From Candidatus Gastranaerophilales bacterium (GTDB lineage: Bacteria > Cyanobacteriota > Vampirovibrionia > Gastranaerophilales > Gastranaerophilaceae): a stretch of DNA of 64,000 nt. Both the position numbers and the translations under genes were made by a program. The notes below the pieces were generated by a model. The model was not told where the DNA came from. It saw only the letters and a list, made by a program, of their open reading frames with translations, and did not search any database. Shown piece by piece: positions 25,111 through 55,110 of the stretch (positions are counted from its first letter, which is position 1; each line of letters opens with the position of its first letter). Where the stretch lies: contig CALVBI010000001.1 in NCBI GenBank assembly GCA_944325735.1, positions 1 to 64,000 on the forward strand. The letters run 5' to 3'.

Positions 25111-26760
25111 ATGGGATTAGCAGCAGGACAAGCTAGATTATTAACAATAACAGCCAGAAAATCTGACTGTGAATATGAATCTATGCGACTCTCTCACCAA
25201 AAAATCGCATTAGCAAGAGAACTTTCTGACCTTTCTAATGAATACCAAAATTCATTAAATCAAACAAAATTGGTATACGATTATTACGGAACAGGCGACA
25301 CATCAACACCATTATCTTATGGATTATTAATGAGTCCTTCTGTTTTGAATGATTACTTACCTGTAACAATTACAGATTCTTTAGGAAGAGTTACGTTAAA
25401 CAGTAAATATGCAGCTGCAGCACGTGCTGCAGGTATTCCTCAAGAAGGCTTGGGAACATTGCCATCAGAAGGAATGCGTAATGCTTTTATACAAGGGTTA
25501 TACACAAGTGGTATTTTAACAAAAAATACAGCTGATAAAATAACTAGCTTACCATACAGTCAAGGTGCAGGATTTGGAGGAGATATTACAAGTTCTGTAG
25601 TTACAAAAACAGGGAATTTAGATAGTTTAATAGAAATGCTAGAAGAAAATAGTACTAATCAATTTCATTTTTCGAATCCAATACCTGATGATGATGGGAA
25701 AAAATCTTGGATAGAAAATCCTGATGATCTAAAAAATGATGTTTCTCAAAAGACTTATGATATTAATATTTATGATTTATTAACAAGTGAAAAAGAAATA
25801 TCACTATCATTTCAAGGTGGTTCGGGAAGCCATAACGTAGATGATGAAACAAAAATAATCGCAGACTATCTTACTAGTCAATTTATTCCTTGGTTAGAAG
25901 AAACATTAGGAAGCGTTTTAAATATTAATGACGAAACGCAAGCAGCATTTGATTATGCAAATACAGAACTTGTAAAAATTCTTTTAAATACAGGAACAGA
26001 TGGTACCCAAACACCTCCAATCTATCAGATTGCCGCACACCGAGGAATAGCTCATTCTACTAGCAAATACAGAAAGGAAGAACAATCGAAGAACCAAAAT
26101 TATATGGGCTTTTCAATGGTGCGCCAAAAAAACGCAGGTGTTGGAAAGAATAAACGTCACTCACAGGGTTCAATTAACTTAAATAACCTTACTCAAGCAT
26201 ATTTAACATTATTTGCACAAGCTATGACAGGACCTGCAAGTAAAGATATTGATGGAACACCTAAATATCAAGTTGTTGCCGGAGATTTAAATTCAAATAA
26301 ATTAGTTACAAATGATTCATTTTTTGAATATACATTAAATATGGGATCTACAGTTTCTAGTGATGATATTGGACAAGCAACATTTTATGATTCTTTATTT
26401 AACCAAATCTGTGCAAATGGCTGGACTGAAAATAATAATATTGAAGATAATGAATATCTCCAAGAAATGTTACAAAGTGGAATGTTATATATTTCAAAAA
26501 TGAAAGATGACGGATATTATTATCAAGCAAACTATGCTACAGATGCATATATAAAAGAAATATCAGATGATACAGCAATAGCACAAGCAGAAGCCAAATA
26601 TACTACAGAAAAAGCTAAATTGAATTCAAAAGAAGAAACTCTTGATTTAAAAATGAAAAATTTAGATACTGAAATTTCTTCACTATCAACTGAATATGAT
26701 ACAGTTAAAAATACGATATCAAAAAATATCGAAAAATCTTTTAAACGATATAATGCATAA
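25111..26760 (+). CDS. Conserved-ends family protein (member 1), unknown
   Basis: The 549-residue protein belongs to a family with four members in this window. The N-terminus, MGLAAGQARLLTITARKSDCEYE, aligns with MGMAASQARFLGLTARK and MGMAASQARLLSITAR of the paralogs at 30717 and 59657. It is followed by a helix ending YQNSLNQTK. The middle (about 60-480) is unrelated between members and looks globular, Asn/Thr/Asp-rich and beta-prone. The C-terminal 60 residues (AIAQAEAKYTTEKAKL to NIEKSFKRYNA) form a coiled coil shared with the paralogs. There is no signal peptide, so secretion, if any, would use a dedicated pathway. Conserved helical ends around a variable middle resemble flagellins and type III filament proteins in layout, without sequence homology that I can see. 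Confidence 0.8.
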   Translation: MGLAAGQARLLTITARKSDCEYESMRLSHQKIALARELSDLSNEYQNSLNQTKLVYDYYGTGDTSTPLSYGLLMSPSVLNDYLPVTITDSLGRVTLNSKYAAAARAAGIPQEGLGTLPSEGMRNAFIQGLYTSGILTKNTADKITSLPYSQGAGFGGDITSSVVTKTGNLDSLIEMLEENSTNQFHFSNPIPDDDGKKSWIENPDDLKNDVSQKTYDINIYDLLTSEKEISLSFQGGSGSHNVDDETKIIADYLTSQFIPWLEETLGSVLNINDETQAAFDYANTELVKILLNTGTDGTQTPPIYQIAAHRGIAHSTSKYRKEEQSKNQNYMGFSMVRQKNAGVGKNKRHSQGSINLNNLTQAYLTLFAQAMTGPASKDIDGTPKYQVVAGDLNSNKLVTNDSFFEYTLNMGSTVSSDDIGQATFYDSLFNQICANGWTENNNIEDNEYLQEMLQSGMLYISKMKDDGYYYQANYATDAYIKEISDDTAIAQAEAKYTTEKAKLNSKEETLDLKMKNLDTEISSLSTEYDTVKNTISKNIEKSFKRYNA

Positions 26761-27757: not shown

Positions 27758-27786
27758 TTGACTAAATAATATCATTATAATAATCT
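27758..27786 (+). promoter_or_regulatory. Probable promoter of the riboswitch-controlled operon
   Basis: TTGACT (27758-27763) and TAATCT (27781-27786) have a 17-nt spacer and predict transcription from about 27793, a few nucleotides before the riboswitch P1 helix. An overlapping perfect TATAAT at 27776-27781 is too close to this -35 box. Confidence 0.5.
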
Positions 27787-27792
27787 TTAAAT

Positions 27793-27935
27793 ATAAGAGG
27801 GAATGGAGTGAATATCTCCAGCTGTGCCGCAACCGTAAAAGCCGGAATACTCAGAAAAACTTATTTACTGCGAGCATCGGTAATAAGATATATTTTTCTC
27901 AGTTGTCCTCTAATGCAATTTACATCAAGAGGATT
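27793..27935 (+). promoter_or_regulatory. Cobalamin-type riboswitch
   Basis: The stretch GAGGGAATGGAGTGAATA (27797-27814), then TCTCCAGCTGTGCCGCAACC (27815-27834) and GTAAAAGCCGGAATAC reproduces the conserved B12-box core (GGGAA, GGnGnGAA..CC, GCTG..CCGCAAC.GTAA, AGnCGGAATAC). A long A/T-rich hairpin (27852-27903) follows. AGAGG at 27796-27800 can close P1 with CCTCT at 27907-27911. TCCTCT at 27906-27911 is also perfectly complementary to the downstream ribosome binding site AGAGGA (27928-27933). This suggests control of translation initiation. The usual GCCACT/GGGAAGG arm between the GTAA and GCCGGA elements is missing, so it is a compact variant. Ligand assignment is by motif only. Confidence 0.85.
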
Positions 27936-27940
27936 TTTTA

Positions 27941-28636
27941 ATGTCACTTACAGCCGTTCATACAAATAGTGCTAGAGTTGGAACTTGTCCACATGGATTA
28001 CCATTAGGAGCATGCCCGATATGTAACGGTATGGGTGGTGGAGGCGGAATAAAAAAAGCTGATTTTTCCGCTAAACCGGGTGAAATGAGTTGGAATGAAT
28101 GTGCTGCAATCGGAGCATTTTTAAAAGCCCAGCAGAATGCAAAATTACAAAGAGAACAAGATGCTCAAAACTTTGCAAAAAATGTCCAAGCTTTTCAAAA
28201 CTCTTTAATGAATTCAAGCCAAAAACTGGCGAATATTGCACAATTTTTTTCGAATAACACACCGGCAATAATCGCTAAACCTGTAAATTTTGTATTAAAC
28301 ACTGTATTAGGCAATATAATAAAAACAATTGCCAATATACCTACAACTATCTCAAATGCAATACAAACAATCCAACAGAAACTTGCAGATATTTCTGATA
28401 AATTAACCGCAATGATGGGTGAATTAAAAGCATCTATCGAAAAGAAAATAACAGAAACTTTTAAAGAAATAAAAAAGAAAATTAAATCAATTTTTTCAAT
28501 ATTTCAACCTGCAGACTCTGATAATAACGACAAACAAATTGATGAAACTAAAAAAGCTTTTGAATTAAGAACTTTCATTCATAAATTATATAAAAAGCTT
28601 ACAAGCGAAAAGGATTTAGAAGAAAATGACAATTAG
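27941..28636 (+). CDS. Unknown protein with CPHG...CPIC zinc-finger-like N-terminus, riboswitch-controlled
   Basis: The 231-residue protein starts 7 nt after AGAGGA. Residues 17-30 read CPHGLPLGACPICN, followed by GMGGGGG: a compact Cys-His-Cys-Cys cluster that could bind Zn, Co or another metal. The rest is helical: a Gln/Asn-rich coil (about 65-95), a moderately hydrophobic stretch (NTPAIIAKPVNFVLNTVLGNIIKTIANIP, split here for description only into 107-120 and 121-135), and a Lys-rich coil to the end. It has no signal peptide. It is the first gene under the cobalamin-type riboswitch and overlaps the next gene by 11 nt, so the two proteins likely act together. A link to cobalt or cobalamin acquisition is inference from regulation only. 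Confidence 0.75.
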   Translation: MSLTAVHTNSARVGTCPHGLPLGACPICNGMGGGGGIKKADFSAKPGEMSWNECAAIGAFLKAQQNAKLQREQDAQNFAKNVQAFQNSLMNSSQKLANIAQFFSNNTPAIIAKPVNFVLNTVLGNIIKTIANIPTTISNAIQTIQQKLADISDKLTAMMGELKASIEKKITETFKEIKKKIKSIFSIFQPADSDNNDKQIDETKKAFELRTFIHKLYKKLTSEKDLEENDN

Positions 28637-30110
28637 TCCGCTACGTGACAGCGAAACATTAAGGCAACAAAGAAATCTCACTTCTACTCAAAAACGAGCA
28701 AATACAGAAACTAAAGAAGGGGTTTTAGTAAATAATTTCATTAAAGATTGCCCTGAATGTAAGGTAAACCTTGAAGATACTTGTGACACTTTAGTAATTT
28801 CAGAAAATTCTAAAATGCCATCTAAATTATATGAAAAAAATAATTCTCCAGAAAAAAGTATACTTCCAATCAGTGCAATAGCTGTAGGAGTTATGGGAAC
28901 TATTACATTATTATCAGCATTTGTAAAACGTAATACAAAAATTAACCTTAAAATATCAAATGAAAAAAGATTACCTGAACTTACAAGAAACGTAGCTCTT
29001 AATGATGAGAAGCATCAAGCACTCTATCAAATGATTGCAAGTCCGACAAGAAAAACTATTCTTGCAGGTATAGGAGTTCTCACATTAAGTGCAATGGGAT
29101 TTATGGGAAAAACTTTCTTTGACGGCTTCAAAGATGTTTGGGTAAAAAAACGCGAAGCAGATATCCAAAAGGACATGCAAGAAAAGTTAATTGATATAGA
29201 AACCCAATCGTTTGCAGGCAAAATACAAATTACAAGAAGTATGTTGTCAGAAAAAGCTAAAGAATTCAGTAAATATTTATCTGATGATAAAGAAAAAATT
29301 CTTCCAAATTTTGGGAAACATCTTAGATTTACAGGAAAACATAATAATAACAATAACTCTGATAATAACAACTTAAACTATTTCCTTCTCGGAGCAACTA
29401 CAGTTGCAACAATTATAGGATTAGGCTATTTATCTCTTAAAAACTTAAGTAAAAGTAAGTCACTTTTAGAAGATTATGCCAAAAACAGAAAAAATCTTAT
29501 TAAAGAAATAGTAAAAAATTCTACAGAGTCAACTAAAGAAAATGATAAAAAATTACTGGAAGCTCATTTTCAATCAATAGATGCTCATGCAGATACAATA
29601 AAAGAATACTTAAAAGGATTAAAATGGAATAAAGCAGAAGTTGATGAATTCACACAAAGACTCATAAAAAAAGCTGAGACATCTACTACAAAAGTAAATG
29701 AAACAATTGGCGGTGATGGAACTCCAAAACCTACATTTTATTCACACGTAGATGACTATAGAGCATTTTTCTACAACTGGCTTTTAGATACGAATAATAC
29801 ACAATTCAAACAATTATTCTTCGGAATAACTGGAATTACAGCACTCAGCTACGGCGGGAAACTTGCAGGTGATGCAATAAAAGAAGTTCAGGTGAAAAAA
29901 CTTAATGCTAAAACGGAAGTAGAATTACAAAACAGACTAATATCCACAGAACTTCGCAACTTCAAATCAAAAAAAGAAGCTGCAATACAACCACTTGTTG
30001 AAGAATTCTATAAACAAGCACAAAATGGCAAACCAAAAGAAGAATTAAAAGTAATAGCAGATAATATATTATTTGAAATTAAAAACGGACCTCCGTTTGT
30101 ATATTCATAA
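28626..30110 (+). CDS. Unknown membrane protein with internal duplication, riboswitch operon
   Basis: The 494-residue protein has four hydrophobic segments: about 78-100, 138-158, 249-272 and 396-415. A short CPEC motif (40-43) recalls the Cys cluster of its partner. The segment around 138-195 and the segment around 396-450 align without gaps over about 37 residues: MGKTFFDGFKDVWVKKREA against GGKLAGDAIKEVQVKKLNA, then similar LQ-LI-E-F spacing. The protein therefore arose by internal duplication of a membrane-helix plus coil module. Asn-rich linker NNNNNSDNNN lies near 240. Its start lies inside the end of the preceding gene (11-nt overlap). No transporter family signature is recognised. A role in envelope uptake or assembly is possible but unproven. 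Confidence 0.75.
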   Translation: MTISPLRDSETLRQQRNLTSTQKRANTETKEGVLVNNFIKDCPECKVNLEDTCDTLVISENSKMPSKLYEKNNSPEKSILPISAIAVGVMGTITLLSAFVKRNTKINLKISNEKRLPELTRNVALNDEKHQALYQMIASPTRKTILAGIGVLTLSAMGFMGKTFFDGFKDVWVKKREADIQKDMQEKLIDIETQSFAGKIQITRSMLSEKAKEFSKYLSDDKEKILPNFGKHLRFTGKHNNNNNSDNNNLNYFLLGATTVATIIGLGYLSLKNLSKSKSLLEDYAKNRKNLIKEIVKNSTESTKENDKKLLEAHFQSIDAHADTIKEYLKGLKWNKAEVDEFTQRLIKKAETSTTKVNETIGGDGTPKPTFYSHVDDYRAFFYNWLLDTNNTQFKQLFFGITGITALSYGGKLAGDAIKEVQVKKLNAKTEVELQNRLISTELRNFKSKKEAAIQPLVEEFYKQAQNGKPKEELKVIADNILFEIKNGPPFVYS

Positions 30111-30125
30111 CCTAAGGAGATCCAA

Positions 30126-30608
30126 ATGTATAATTATATAACAATACAACCTTATAAAATTCAACAAAACCAATATATACCTTGTCAATTACCACAAGGC
30201 AAGAGGAATTACACAATTGTAGATAAAAATAAAGTAGACCATTTTGTATCTCAAAAAGAAGCTGCTTTACCTTATCTTACAGATATTTTAATTCATTCTA
30301 ATAATGAAGCACAAATAGTAGAAACTCTACATATTGTAAATTCTATGCTTGATAATGGAGTAAAAGGTATTGATAAAATGTACCCGGTATTATCTCGTTT
30401 TAATAATACAAATTCCCCCAATATACAAACATATCTTGCTGGGATTTATAGAAAAACACAAATTCCTGATGCATTTGGCCCACTTGTGAAAATGTTGATA
30501 CAAAATTCTATTCGCCCTCAAACCTCAAATTTTGATCCTAATGAAGAAATTGGAGGAGCAATCCTATCATACATTTCAGACCGTTTTAGAAATCAACCTC
30601 AAAAATAA
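30126..30608 (+). CDS. Unknown helical-repeat protein, third gene of riboswitch operon
   Basis: The 160-residue protein starts after a strong AAGGAGATCC, 15 nt beyond the previous stop, so it is co-transcribed with the two preceding genes. Residues about 40-130 show an alternation of hydrophobic helices (PYLTDILIHSNNEAQIVETL, then NSMLDNGVKGIDKMYPVLSRF and TYLAGIYRKTQIPDAFGPLV) typical of HEAT-like or armadillo-like repeats, which usually mediate protein contacts. There is no signal peptide, membrane helix or catalytic motif. The operon ends in a region with two TAACATGTT palindromic elements. The function is unknown. Confidence 0.7.
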   Translation: MYNYITIQPYKIQQNQYIPCQLPQGKRNYTIVDKNKVDHFVSQKEAALPYLTDILIHSNNEAQIVETLHIVNSMLDNGVKGIDKMYPVLSRFNNTNSPNIQTYLAGIYRKTQIPDAFGPLVKMLIQNSIRPQTSNFDPNEEIGGAILSYISDRFRNQPQK

Positions 30609-30716: not shown

Positions 30717-31784
30717 ATGGGAATGGCAGCGTCACAAGCTAGATTTTTAGGTCTGACAGCCAGAAAAACCAATGTTGAATTTGAAGGTCAACAGATCAAC
30801 CAACAAAGAACAACATTGTCAAACCAATCTGCTAACTACTACAACGATTTGTTGGGTATGTCAGTACCTGTTCCACCGTCTGTCGACGATTACACAAAAA
30901 CTGTGTATACTTTCGAAGATGGTGCTTTAACAAACCAAATTACTTCAATGATCGCACAAAATGATGGTACATACACTATTAGCTATATTAGACAATGGAA
31001 AGATGATTTCTCAGTAGTCGGTGCAGCTACAAGCATTGTTAATGCAAATAATGACAGATCAGTTTTTAAAGTTGGTTCTACAACTTTAAGAACTTTAGGC
31101 ACAATACCAACTACAGCTGAAGGATTATACGATAAAGATGCAGGAGGAGCAGACAGTTACTTGGAATCTTTATCAGCAGACCAAATTACACAACTCAAAA
31201 AAGAAGAAGAAGAATATCTTAAACTTCTAAAAAGTAAATATGGAGATGACGACTATTTAGTTAGATATGTAAAAAATACAACAACAGGAGAATACAGCCC
31301 ATATTTCTACAAAAAAACAGATTTGGAAAAAGCAAATTACGATGATAAAGGCAATTCTCAATCTAACATAAATTGCTACACAATCGGCAGTGAAACAAAA
31401 ACTGAAGAAGTAAAAGCATCTACAGGCTGTCATATTGAAAAAGACAGCTCAGGTAGATACATCAATATCACTATACCTCAATATGATGATGCGGGCGACC
31501 CTATTGATGGAACAGGAGTAACTTATTCTCTTACTACTTCTACAGTTACTGACCAAGATGCTTATGAAGATGCAATGAATCAATATGAATATGAAAAATA
31601 TGAATATGATCAAGCAATCGATGAAATTAACGCAAAAATTGAAATTGTTCAAGCTCAAGATAAAAACTTAGAATTAAGATTAAAACAACTTGATACAGAA
31701 CAAGATGCAATTTCTACTGAAATGGATGCAGTACAAAAAGTCATTGAAAAAAATACAGAAGGTACTTTCAAAACTTTTGGCTAA
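30717..31784 (+). CDS. Conserved-ends family protein (member 2), unknown
   Basis: The protein has 355 residues from the ATG at 30717, chosen because AAAGGAAG lies 9 nt upstream and because the paralogs start at the same MGMAAS sequence; a longer frame from an earlier alternative codon is less likely. It opens with MGMAASQARFLGLTARKTNV, followed by a Gln/Asn-rich helix ending near NYYNDLL. The middle (about 45-280) is Thr/Asp/Tyr-rich and differs from the other members. The C-terminal coil (about 285-355) ends KNTEGTFKTFG, almost the same as the ENSFKTFG ending of the member at 59657. It is followed by a likely terminator. Localisation and partners are unknown. Conservation restricted to the two ends suggests that they polymerise or carry an export signal. 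Confidence 0.8.
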   Translation: MGMAASQARFLGLTARKTNVEFEGQQINQQRTTLSNQSANYYNDLLGMSVPVPPSVDDYTKTVYTFEDGALTNQITSMIAQNDGTYTISYIRQWKDDFSVVGAATSIVNANNDRSVFKVGSTTLRTLGTIPTTAEGLYDKDAGGADSYLESLSADQITQLKKEEEEYLKLLKSKYGDDDYLVRYVKNTTTGEYSPYFYKKTDLEKANYDDKGNSQSNINCYTIGSETKTEEVKASTGCHIEKDSSGRYINITIPQYDDAGDPIDGTGVTYSLTTSTVTDQDAYEDAMNQYEYEKYEYDQAIDEINAKIEIVQAQDKNLELRLKQLDTEQDAISTEMDAVQKVIEKNTEGTFKTFG

Positions 31785-52101: not shown

Positions 52102-52920
52102 TTATTTTGTAGCAAATTGTTCATCAATTTTTGCAAATTTTGCTTCAATCATGTTTGTGTATCTTTGGCAAGATTCTTTATCTTGAATCCAGTTTGGAAG
52201 GATTTCTTTTCTTGCTTTTGTTAAAGTTGCTCTATTACCAGAATTAGCAAATTCTTTAACTGCTTCATATTGTTTATCTGTTAAACCTGCATCTTCTAAT
52301 ACTTTAGCTTTTTTGAAATCAACAGGATTATAATCCTCAAAAGCAGCCCTTGCATCTGCAATCATATCATCACGCTGAAGAGATGTTAACTGAGATTTAT
52401 CAAAATTAGCAGCATAATTTCTATGAGCATCATTTGATGCTTGTTCTTTTGAATAAGTTGCATAGCGTTTTTCTTGTAATTCTTGTGATTTTCCTGTAAT
52501 TTTATCTTTTAATTTGCTAGCTTTGCCAGTGATGCTTTTCCAAAGTTTAACACCGCTATCACCAATTGCGAAAAATACGTTTTTAACTTGATCAGCAAAT
52601 CCTAATTTTTTGCCTTGTTCTGCAACTGCTTTTGTTAATTTACCTTTGCCAACAGCAACACTTAAGCCTACATAAGCAGCAGCAAGTGCAGTACCTATTC
52701 CAGCTGCAATTTTTGCATTTTTATTGTCTTTTTTGAATTCAAAATCTTTTCCTGCTTCAATATTGTCAGCATTTTTAATTAATTGTTTTTTGAATTCATC
52801 TTGAGATAAAGTTTTAATTTTACCTTGTGAATTTGTAACTTGAATTTTACCCTGTTGGGTCATTTCTACTTTGTTCCCGCCGATTGATAATGCAGGTCCG
52901 ATTGTCATGTTGTTTGTCAT
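52102..52920 (-). CDS. Unknown protein with hydrophobic central helix
   Basis: The 272-residue protein starts after AAAGGTAG. The N-terminus (MTNNMTIGPALSIGGNKVEM) is followed by a short beta-like stretch, then a Gly/Ala-rich hydrophobic helix at about 70-92 (AKIAAGIGTALAAAYVGLSVAVG) and a long, Lys-rich helical C-terminal region that includes DKITGKSQELQEK and a Lys/Asp/Ala-rich tail. It has no cleavable signal peptide. The architecture, a soluble helical protein with one hydrophobic segment, resembles the riboswitch-operon proteins at 27.9-30 kb, but no sequence homology is claimed. It has its own promoter (TTGACG, 16 nt, TATAAA at 52949-52954) and its own terminator. Confidence 0.65.
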   Translation of the reverse strand: MTNNMTIGPALSIGGNKVEMTQQGKIQVTNSQGKIKTLSQDEFKKQLIKNADNIEAGKDFEFKKDNKNAKIAAGIGTALAAAYVGLSVAVGKGKLTKAVAEQGKKLGFADQVKNVFFAIGDSGVKLWKSITGKASKLKDKITGKSQELQEKRYATYSKEQASNDAHRNYAANFDKSQLTSLQRDDMIADARAAFEDYNPVDFKKAKVLEDAGLTDKQYEAVKEFANSGNRATLTKARKEILPNWIQDKESCQRYTNMIEAKFAKIDEQFATK

Positions 52921-53121: not shown

Positions 53122-55110
53122 CTACGAACAACCAGAGTATCCACATTTCAAACAGATAAAGCAGCCTTCAGCCATTTGAATTTCATTACCGCATTCAGGG
53201 CATTTTACTGTTTTTATTTCACCAGTAGGTTCTTCAGAATCAATAGTTTCTTCAACTACTGTTTCTTCTACTTTAGCTTCTTCTGTTTTTTTCTTATCGT
53301 CCAAATTCATTGGTTGGAATTGACGAGAATTATTTCTGTATACTGTAATACCTTTTAAATTGTTTTCGTAAGCTAAAATATATGCTTCTTCAATATCTTT
53401 GCGAGTTGCATGTTCTTCAAAGTTAACCGTTTTAGATACAGCATTGTCTGTATGAAGTTGGAATGCCGCTTGCATTTTTACGTGCCAGTATGGAGAAACA
53501 TCGTGAGCTGTTACGAAAATTTGTTTAGCATCTGCAGGAACTCCATCTACATGAGCTACAGAACCTGTTTTAGCGATTTCTTTCATTAATTTTTCTGAAT
53601 AGAAGCCATGTTCTACGGCATAATCCTTGAATATAGGATTAACTTCAAGCATTTCTGTTCCATCCATGATTAATCTTGAAAATACTAGACCGAATAATGG
53701 TTCAACACCGCCAGATGCAGATGCAATCATAGAAATTGTACCTGTAGGAGCAATACAAGTTGTAGTTGCATTTCTTATACCTACTTTGGCAATTTGTTCA
53801 TCTAATTCTTTCCATTGTTCGTCAGAAATTTTGCCTGCAGATTTTCCTTTATATTTGTTATACAAATAGTTTGGAGAATCATATACACTGCCATTGAAAT
53901 TATTAAATCTTCCTCTTTCTTTTGACAATTCAATTGATTCACATTTAGATTCGTAATCAATGAATTCCATAATTTGACCGGCTAATTTAGTTCCTTCTTC
54001 TGAAGCGTAAGAAATGCCTAATTTCATAAGCATATCAGCCCAACCCATTACACCTAAACCGATTTTTCTGTTGTTTTGAACCATTTCAGAAATTTGAGGT
54101 AGAGGATAATTATTTACAGCGATTACGTTATCTAAGAATCTGATAGCAGTTCTTGTAGTTTCAGCAAGTAAATCCCAATTAATTTTTCCATCTTCTACCA
54201 TTCTGCCTAAGTTAATAGAACCTAAGTTACAAGCTTCGTAAGCTAATAGAGGAACTTCTCCACAAGGATTTGTAGACTCAATAGGTCCAACTAATGGAGT
54301 TGGGTTGTCACCATTCATTTTATCAATAAAGATAATACCAGGTTCACCATTTCTCCAAGCACCGTCTACAATCATATCAAATACTTTTTTAGCACTTAAT
54401 TTACCTGCAACTGTATTATTTTGCGGATTGATTAATTCATAATCAGTACCAGCTTTTAAAGCTTCCATAAATTTATCTGTAATAGCAACAGAAATATTAA
54501 AGTTATTTAATTTATTATTATCGCTTTTGCATTCAATAAAATCTAAAATATCAGGGTGGTCAACTCTTAAGATTCCCATGTTAGCTCCACGACGTGTACC
54601 ACCTTGTTTAACAGCTTCAGTTGCAGCATTGAATACTTCCATAAATGAAACAGGACCTGAAGATACGCCCATTGTTGATTTAACAACACTATTTTTAGGT
54701 CTTAATCTTGAGAATGAAAAACCTGTACCACCACCTGATTTATGTATTAATGCAGTATTTTTTACGGTTTCAAAAATTCCTTCCAAGCTGTCTTCTACAG
54801 GGAGTACAAAACAAGCAGCTAATTGTCCTAATTCTCTACCTGCATTCATTAAAGTAGGAGAGTTAGGCATAAAATATCTGCTGGTAATAGCTTTGTAGAA
54901 TCTGTCAGATAATTTGTCTACATCGCTTTGAGATTTACCAAATTTTAAATCTCCTGCTGCAATTGTATCTGCAACTCTTCTGAACATGTCAGCTGGAGTT
55001 TCTACGCATTTCCCTTCTTTATCTCTTTTTAAGTATCTTTTTTCAAGTACTTTAATAGCGTTTTCCGCTAAGTCTAATTTTTCCATGCATGTGCTGTTTG
55101 AATCCGTCAC
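53122..55110 (-). CDS. nrdJ: Adenosylcobalamin-dependent (class II) ribonucleoside-diphosphate reductase
   Basis: The 662-residue enzyme starts at GTG with CGGAGG 6 nt upstream. [12 protein letters not shown] near 77, [14 protein letters not shown] near 93, [14 protein letters not shown] near 120 and [12 protein letters not shown] near 165 mark the N-terminal half. The catalytic finger [22 protein letters not shown] lies near 290 and [16 protein letters not shown] near 455. The C-terminal tail has a CxxC-type zinc ribbon (CPECGNEI near 635, [10 protein letters not shown] at the end). These features, and the absence of a NrdB or NrdG partner, identify the B12-dependent NrdJ type. It makes deoxyribonucleotides using adenosylcobalamin, so the cell needs cobalamin for DNA synthesis. 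No ATP-cone is evident. Confidence 0.95.

Follow-up and report, generated by a model that had tools for sequence, protein, structure and literature searches.

Most gut bacteria scavenge vitamin B12 and compete for it. In the order Gastranaerophilales, the closest described import system is the BtuB-BtuCDF of sister lineages, composed of a receptor barrel, a permease, an ATPase and a binding protein. B12 can also enter cells without BtuCD, through ECF-type B12 transporters (PMC5997447) or through SbmA/BacA-type proteins such as mycobacterial BacA (PMC10960864), and BtuG and vesicle-linked proteins of Bacteroides are reported as accessories of B12 acquisition (PMC10404256, PMC12751083). Our literature search on B12 import in Gastranaerophilales found nothing, which is weak because subscription literature was mostly out of reach.

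We analyzed a stretch of 64,000 nucleotides from a Candidatus Gastranaerophilales genome (contig CALVBI010000001.1; called the window below), in which a cobalamin riboswitch precedes three genes, P1, P2 and P3. This operon shares with the BtuB-BtuCDF loci of sister lineages the riboswitch class, the bacterial order and plausibly the physiological task, but the proteins have no sequence relation, and the Pfam and NCBIfam searches found no TonB receptor, FecCD-type permease, ABC ATPase or BtuF-like protein among P1-P3. By Pfam they are also unrelated to ECF-type and SbmA/BacA systems, and EcfT/CbiQ was found in none of the 126 genomes of the family, the window's included. The Bacteroides accessory proteins resemble P1-P2 in being lineage-specific proteins for scarce gut B12, but they accompany BtuB-type systems, whereas P1-P2 mostly occur without such systems. 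The features of the window are as follows.

27783-27859, forward strand: aptamer of the AdoCbl-II cobalamin riboswitch (RF01689, 43.3 bits)
27796-27801, forward strand: AGAGGG, 5' strand of the aptamer, which can pair with 27906-27911 (anti-sequestor) or with the aptamer CUC (aptamer P3)
27825-27830, forward strand: L5 loop UGCCGC, kissing-loop partner that covaries with L13 in 31 leaders
27870-27876, forward strand: L13 loop GCGAGCA, part of the expression platform; some sequences are changed on both sides of alignment pairs 35-97 and 36-96
27906-27933, forward strand: sequestor hairpin formed by UCCUCU (27906-27911) and the Shine-Dalgarno AGAGGA (27928-27933), with T6 behind it
27941-28636, forward strand: P1, 231 aa, with CPHGxPxGxCPxCxGxxGGGG at the N-terminus and amphipathic helices after it
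27986-28045, forward strand: Cys/His motif of P1 (C16, H18, C25, C28) and Gly-rich tail, conservation judged in 19 sequences
28626-30110, forward strand: P2, membrane protein of 494 aa ending in EIKNGPPFVYS
29007-29252, forward strand: P2 repeat 1 (residues about 128-209, hhalign)
29754-30005, forward strand: P2 repeat 2 (residues about 377-460, hhalign)
30126-30608, forward strand: P3, conserved protein of 160 aa found in most operons but not next to P1-P2 in family f3
53122-55110, reverse strand: NrdJ, AdoCbl-dependent ribonucleotide reductase, outside the operon (TIGR02504, NF006417)

The initial annotation had placed a cobalamin-type riboswitch ahead of the operon, and an Rfam search of the whole window bore this out: RF01689 matched the forward strand with 43.3 bits, above its gathering score of 36.5, at E 4.6e-07, and this was its single match in the 1.94 Mb genome. 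RF00174, a model of the same clan, gave 24.9 bits on the same spot, under its cut-off, and our lineage model R1, which has the window leader as one of its training sequences, gave 136.4 bits over 27779-27919. A promoter scan around the riboswitch performed no better than chance. The element is like RF01689 in its aptamer core over the gathering score, its covarying P4 hairpin, its L5-L13 kissing loop and a platform masking the Shine-Dalgarno sequence; it is unlike RF01689 in its target genes, which belong to no known family, while the RNA itself is ordinary. On sequence grounds, it is well supported that this element is a genuine B12-sensing RNA switch of the operon.

Control through a kissing loop is the known mechanism of the AdoCbl-II class (PMC9600662). 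In the alignment of 31 leaders, the L5-L13 kissing loop is paired in 94% of cells with compensatory changes at two pairs, and the covariation is seen as CUGCC/GCAG, as UGCC/GCAU and, in three of five, as UAGCC/GCU. The sequestor hairpin is paired in 100% of cells despite great variation in loop length, and its pairs are nearly unvarying, so that no covariation comes from it. UCCUC from 27906 is invariant in these leaders and has as alternative partners the aptamer GAGG (27796) and the Shine-Dalgarno AGAGGA (27928), the latter lying 7 bases 5' of the AUG of P1; the 5' strand AGAGGG is also conserved in all 31. RNAalifold selected the anti-sequestor pairing unprompted on a shorter leader alignment, and the structure as a whole scored better than slid versions on the 31-leader alignment. 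The sequestered fold (-30.3 kcal/mol) and the anti-sequestor fold (-28.2), calculated with ViennaRNA, are near enough for the ligand to decide between them. The predicted logic is that B12 turns the operon off: with AdoCbl bound, CCUC (27906) would mask the Shine-Dalgarno sequence (27928), and with no ligand it would pair with the aptamer GAGG (27796), so that translation could begin. The T6 after the sequestor hairpin may be a weak terminator that adds termination.

P1, P2 and P3 all lie on the forward strand, with P1 and P2 overlapping by 11 bases and P3 close behind, in agreement with the initial annotation of three overlapping or close genes. Its statement that they belong to no recognizable family also held, since nothing exceeded the cut-offs of Pfam, NCBIfam or PHROGs; this includes metal transporters in Pfam and enzyme families such as NrdD, NrdAB and MetE. 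Profile searches of PDB with P1-P3 gave nothing meaningful, and weak matches of coiled-coil or tape-measure type in Pfam, NCBIfam and PHROGs, all under the cut-offs, were rejected as composition effects.

The cluster of P1 had been read as CPHG-6-CPIC, and the actual spacing is CPHG-x5-CPIC. Across 19 sequences taken from many genera, C16, P17, H18, G19, G23, C25, P26, C28, G30 and G35 do not vary, and this strict conservation makes metal binding by the cluster plausible; the motif would most simply be a zinc knuckle, and corrin binding, the other role suggested earlier, finds no support. No signal peptide was seen by inspection in P1 or P3, and P3 has no hydrophobic segment. In family f3, some P1 relatives share only a core helix, DK-I/L-x-AVYGE-x-x-KDI, and have neither the Cys/His motif nor P2 (L293 6078-6713, L294 380-958, L295 6472-7068, L296 2540-3160 and L297 6337-6984), which indicates a wider use for the core part of P1. 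These paralogues lie upstream of a secreted protein that by eye resembles CsgG/LpoB-type lipoproteins.

P2 is a membrane protein, as described earlier, but the four helices assigned to it reduce here to three clear hydrophobic segments, a fourth being clear in some relatives only. Its C-terminal EIKNGPPF-V/I-Y is nearly invariant among relatives. An hhalign comparison of the first and second halves of its family alignment showed them to be homologous (probability 97.8, E 7e-13), each containing a hydrophobic segment and, after it, a long helix of the pattern GK-x3-D-G/A-x-K-x-V-x-VKK. AlphaFold2 models built from 19 and then 49 sequences are all-helical and of low confidence (pTM 0.40-0.44; pLDDT 66 at pTM 0.44), and fold searches with the low-confidence model returned a best E of 0.12 in Foldseek and a best Z of 8.9 in VIA-align, the latter for unrelated helical rows, so that P2 received no fold assignment.

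Across the order, 50 of 58 relatives have P1. P2 occurs in 124 of the 292 phylum genomes sampled; except for one match in a distant member (G318, E 6e-6, inside a 2327-codon frame), which we set aside as marginal, these belong to the window's order. Eight sampled genomes of the window's family are without P2 and the rest have it. A phage or plasmid origin of P2 was rejected, since viral contigs, phages and plasmids contained no relatives of it. In the loci read, P2 lies next to P1 and most have P3 after it, with flanking genes differing by lineage. A model of 27 leaders, some of whose training loci are among the 52 loci counted, detected a riboswitch immediately ahead of P1 in 49 of the 52 at E ≤0.16 (48 at E ≤0.012). 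RF00174 exceeded its cut-off at the same place in the two loci missed by the lineage model (L071 and L075) and in the one at E 0.16 (L070), so that with both models combined 51 of 52 loci have a cobalamin riboswitch ahead of P1, L068 being the sole exception; the set includes genera only about 30% identical to the window's P1. A missing covariance-model match, or homologous operons that lack the element and do not respond to B12, had been named in the initial annotation as evidence against it; the match is present, and the homologous operons, with that one exception, keep the riboswitch.

Where the relatives have named records, most are metagenome-assembled genomes of Candidatus Gastranaerophilales, and animal guts are the source of many. 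One record named Fusobacterium sp. CAG:439 (FR900437.1, L206) has the operon too; its P2 is 87% identical to that of the window, and the name is evidently an outdated one for a Gastranaerophilales genome. In the window's genus and the next genus, the operon is flanked by a paralogous pair of no known family (25111-26760 and 30717-31784 in the window), which has a common N-terminus, MG-L/M-AA-x-QAR-x-L-x-x-TARK, and a C-terminal coiled coil; like ends with a variable middle are as in axial or surface proteins.

In relatives, the same riboswitch type precedes BtuB-BtuC-BtuD-BtuF, NrdD-NrdG, MetE and CobT, the families having been checked in representatives, and in an outgroup a class I ribonucleotide reductase, as judged by eye. 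Since this type governs the classical B12 regulon of the order, the switch can be taken to read B12. The BtuB-BtuCDF loci with the riboswitch belong to sister lineages (L091, L094, L098, L104, L107 and L109). Three further loci were recorded in the course of this comparison. On the reverse strand of L096 (174-1777), a cobalamin riboswitch lies ahead of genes for a 61-aa peptide and a radical SAM protein, which may form a RiPP-type pair regulated by B12. On that of L102 (6216-7841), the riboswitch is followed by a frame that starts MetE-like and continues radical SAM-like, either an in-frame fused MetE remnant or an assembly join. L095 (1872-2425) has a back-to-back pair of cobalamin riboswitches, each on its own strand, of which one precedes CobT and the other has no same-strand gene directly downstream.

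The demand for B12 is visible in the window itself, where NrdJ scores 738.3 bits with TIGR02504 (cut-off 399.95) and 993.6 bits with NF006417 (cut-off 961); the genome has in addition at least two B12-binding radical SAM proteins. Adjoining NrdJ on the same strand (52102-52920) is a gene whose small product combines a hydrophobic segment with charged helices. NrdJ exceeds the cut-off in 86 of the 126 family genomes, the window's included. As markers of supply we searched for BtuB, FecCD/BtuC, EcfT/CbiQ and CbiC, a set in which ECF transport and de novo synthesis have one marker each (EcfT/CbiQ and CbiC), and the window's genome matched none of the four. CbiC, marking de novo corrin synthesis, is missing from all 126 family genomes; any FecCD-type permease occurs in six of the 126, with an Rfam cobalamin riboswitch at two of those loci, and BtuB in six of 58 relatives. 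The genomes compared are mostly metagenome assemblies; the searches for NrdJ, FecCD, EcfT/CbiQ and CbiC were positive in control genomes for each family.

Of the 50 genomes with P1, 3 contain strong FecCD matches, versus 4 of the 8 without it (Fisher p 0.005, an optimistic value because the genomes are related and kinship is uncorrected), and this rarity of BtuC-type permeases in genomes with P1 leans towards mutual replacement. Three genomes (G006, G040 and G045) have BtuB-BtuCDF alongside P1-P2. P1-P2 and the riboswitch are kept in genera without NrdJ (e.g., L165, L166 and L168), and two NrdJ-bearing genomes (G211 and G222) have no P2, perhaps through assembly gaps.

B12 control, strict conservation, a membrane protein, the lack of corrin-ring synthesis and missing known importers, taken together, make corrinoid acquisition the best explanation of the operon. 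We give about an even chance to its being a B12-repressed, lineage-specific system of corrinoid acquisition (or trafficking), for which we infer transport. The earlier suggestion of an unrecognized cobalamin acquisition, storage or salvage system is partly supported, in that the riboswitch type reads B12, AdoCbl is needed and the tested import and de novo markers are missing; the handling of corrinoid itself is the part that we infer. When B12 is scarce, P1 and P2 would be made, P2 being seated in the membrane via its two duplicated units of transmembrane segment plus long helix, and P1, probably a membrane-associated helical protein with a zinc knuckle, acting as its partner. The two, usually with P3, would take up or hand on corrinoid, the recipients being NrdJ and the B12-dependent radical SAM enzymes, and the operon would stand in for BtuB/BtuCDF, missing from nearly all these genomes. 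That P1-P2(-P3) is specifically an undescribed non-ABC, non-ECF importer replacing BtuB/BtuCDF in most gut Gastranaerophilales is a proposal that we make tentatively. Against acquisition, P1-P3 resemble no transporter, the low-confidence P2 model has no counterpart among known folds, the operon encodes no outer-membrane part, and control by a B12 riboswitch fits stand-ins for B12-dependent functions as well. The genera that keep P1-P2 without NrdJ, the three genomes that combine it with BtuB-BtuCDF and the two with NrdJ but no P2 also count against it.

Such a stand-in is the main rival: a B12-repressed back-up or envelope module that handles no corrinoid and replaces a B12-dependent function, adapts the cell to the loss of one, or alters surface contact with B12 producers. 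The same riboswitches do govern the B12-independent NrdD and MetE in the order, P1-P2 persists where NrdJ is absent, and the f3 paralogues use the P1 core without its motif and without P2; but there is no enzyme-like protein among P1-P3, the B12 supply of NrdJ would be left without explanation, and the distribution leans to exclusion of BtuC, so that we regard this reading as rather unlikely. An intracellular role in storage, delivery to NrdJ, adenosylation or remodelling, not transport, would suit P1 and P3 as proteins without apparent signal peptides, the conserved Cys/His motif, and riboswitch control, with which salvage is compatible. It is improbable, however, given that P2 is a membrane protein whose gene, in the loci read, overlaps that of P1 or lies directly against it, and that no significant match to an adenosyltransferase or B12 chaperone was obtained, PF01923 reaching P1 only at E 0.015, under the cut-off and amid many coiled-coil matches.

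Many cobalamin riboswitches govern cobalt transporters, and the likely metal-binding motif of P1 would also agree with a B12-controlled system that takes up or senses cobalt or zinc, like CbtAB, HupE or CbiMNQO. Neither CbiC nor EcfT/CbiQ occurs in the 126 family genomes, P1-P3 have no metal-transporter match in Pfam, and a cell that makes no corrin ring would not regain B12 from additional cobalt; we consider this reading very unlikely, and the cobalt acquisition offered by the initial annotation is unlikely for the same lack of CbiC.

We thus return to corrinoid acquisition as the preferred reading. A gut family that appears largely AdoCbl-dependent, through class II ribonucleotide reductase, and without the tested markers of synthesis and import has, in nearly all its genomes, one B12-switched operon of undescribed proteins. 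If the operon is not an importer, it adds a new member to the B12 regulon, and the B12 supply of these cells is still to be explained. If it imports corrinoid, it would represent a new transport mechanism and a marker of B12 scavenging that current annotation misses, and at present it is the best candidate yet for B12 procurement in these Gastranaerophilales.
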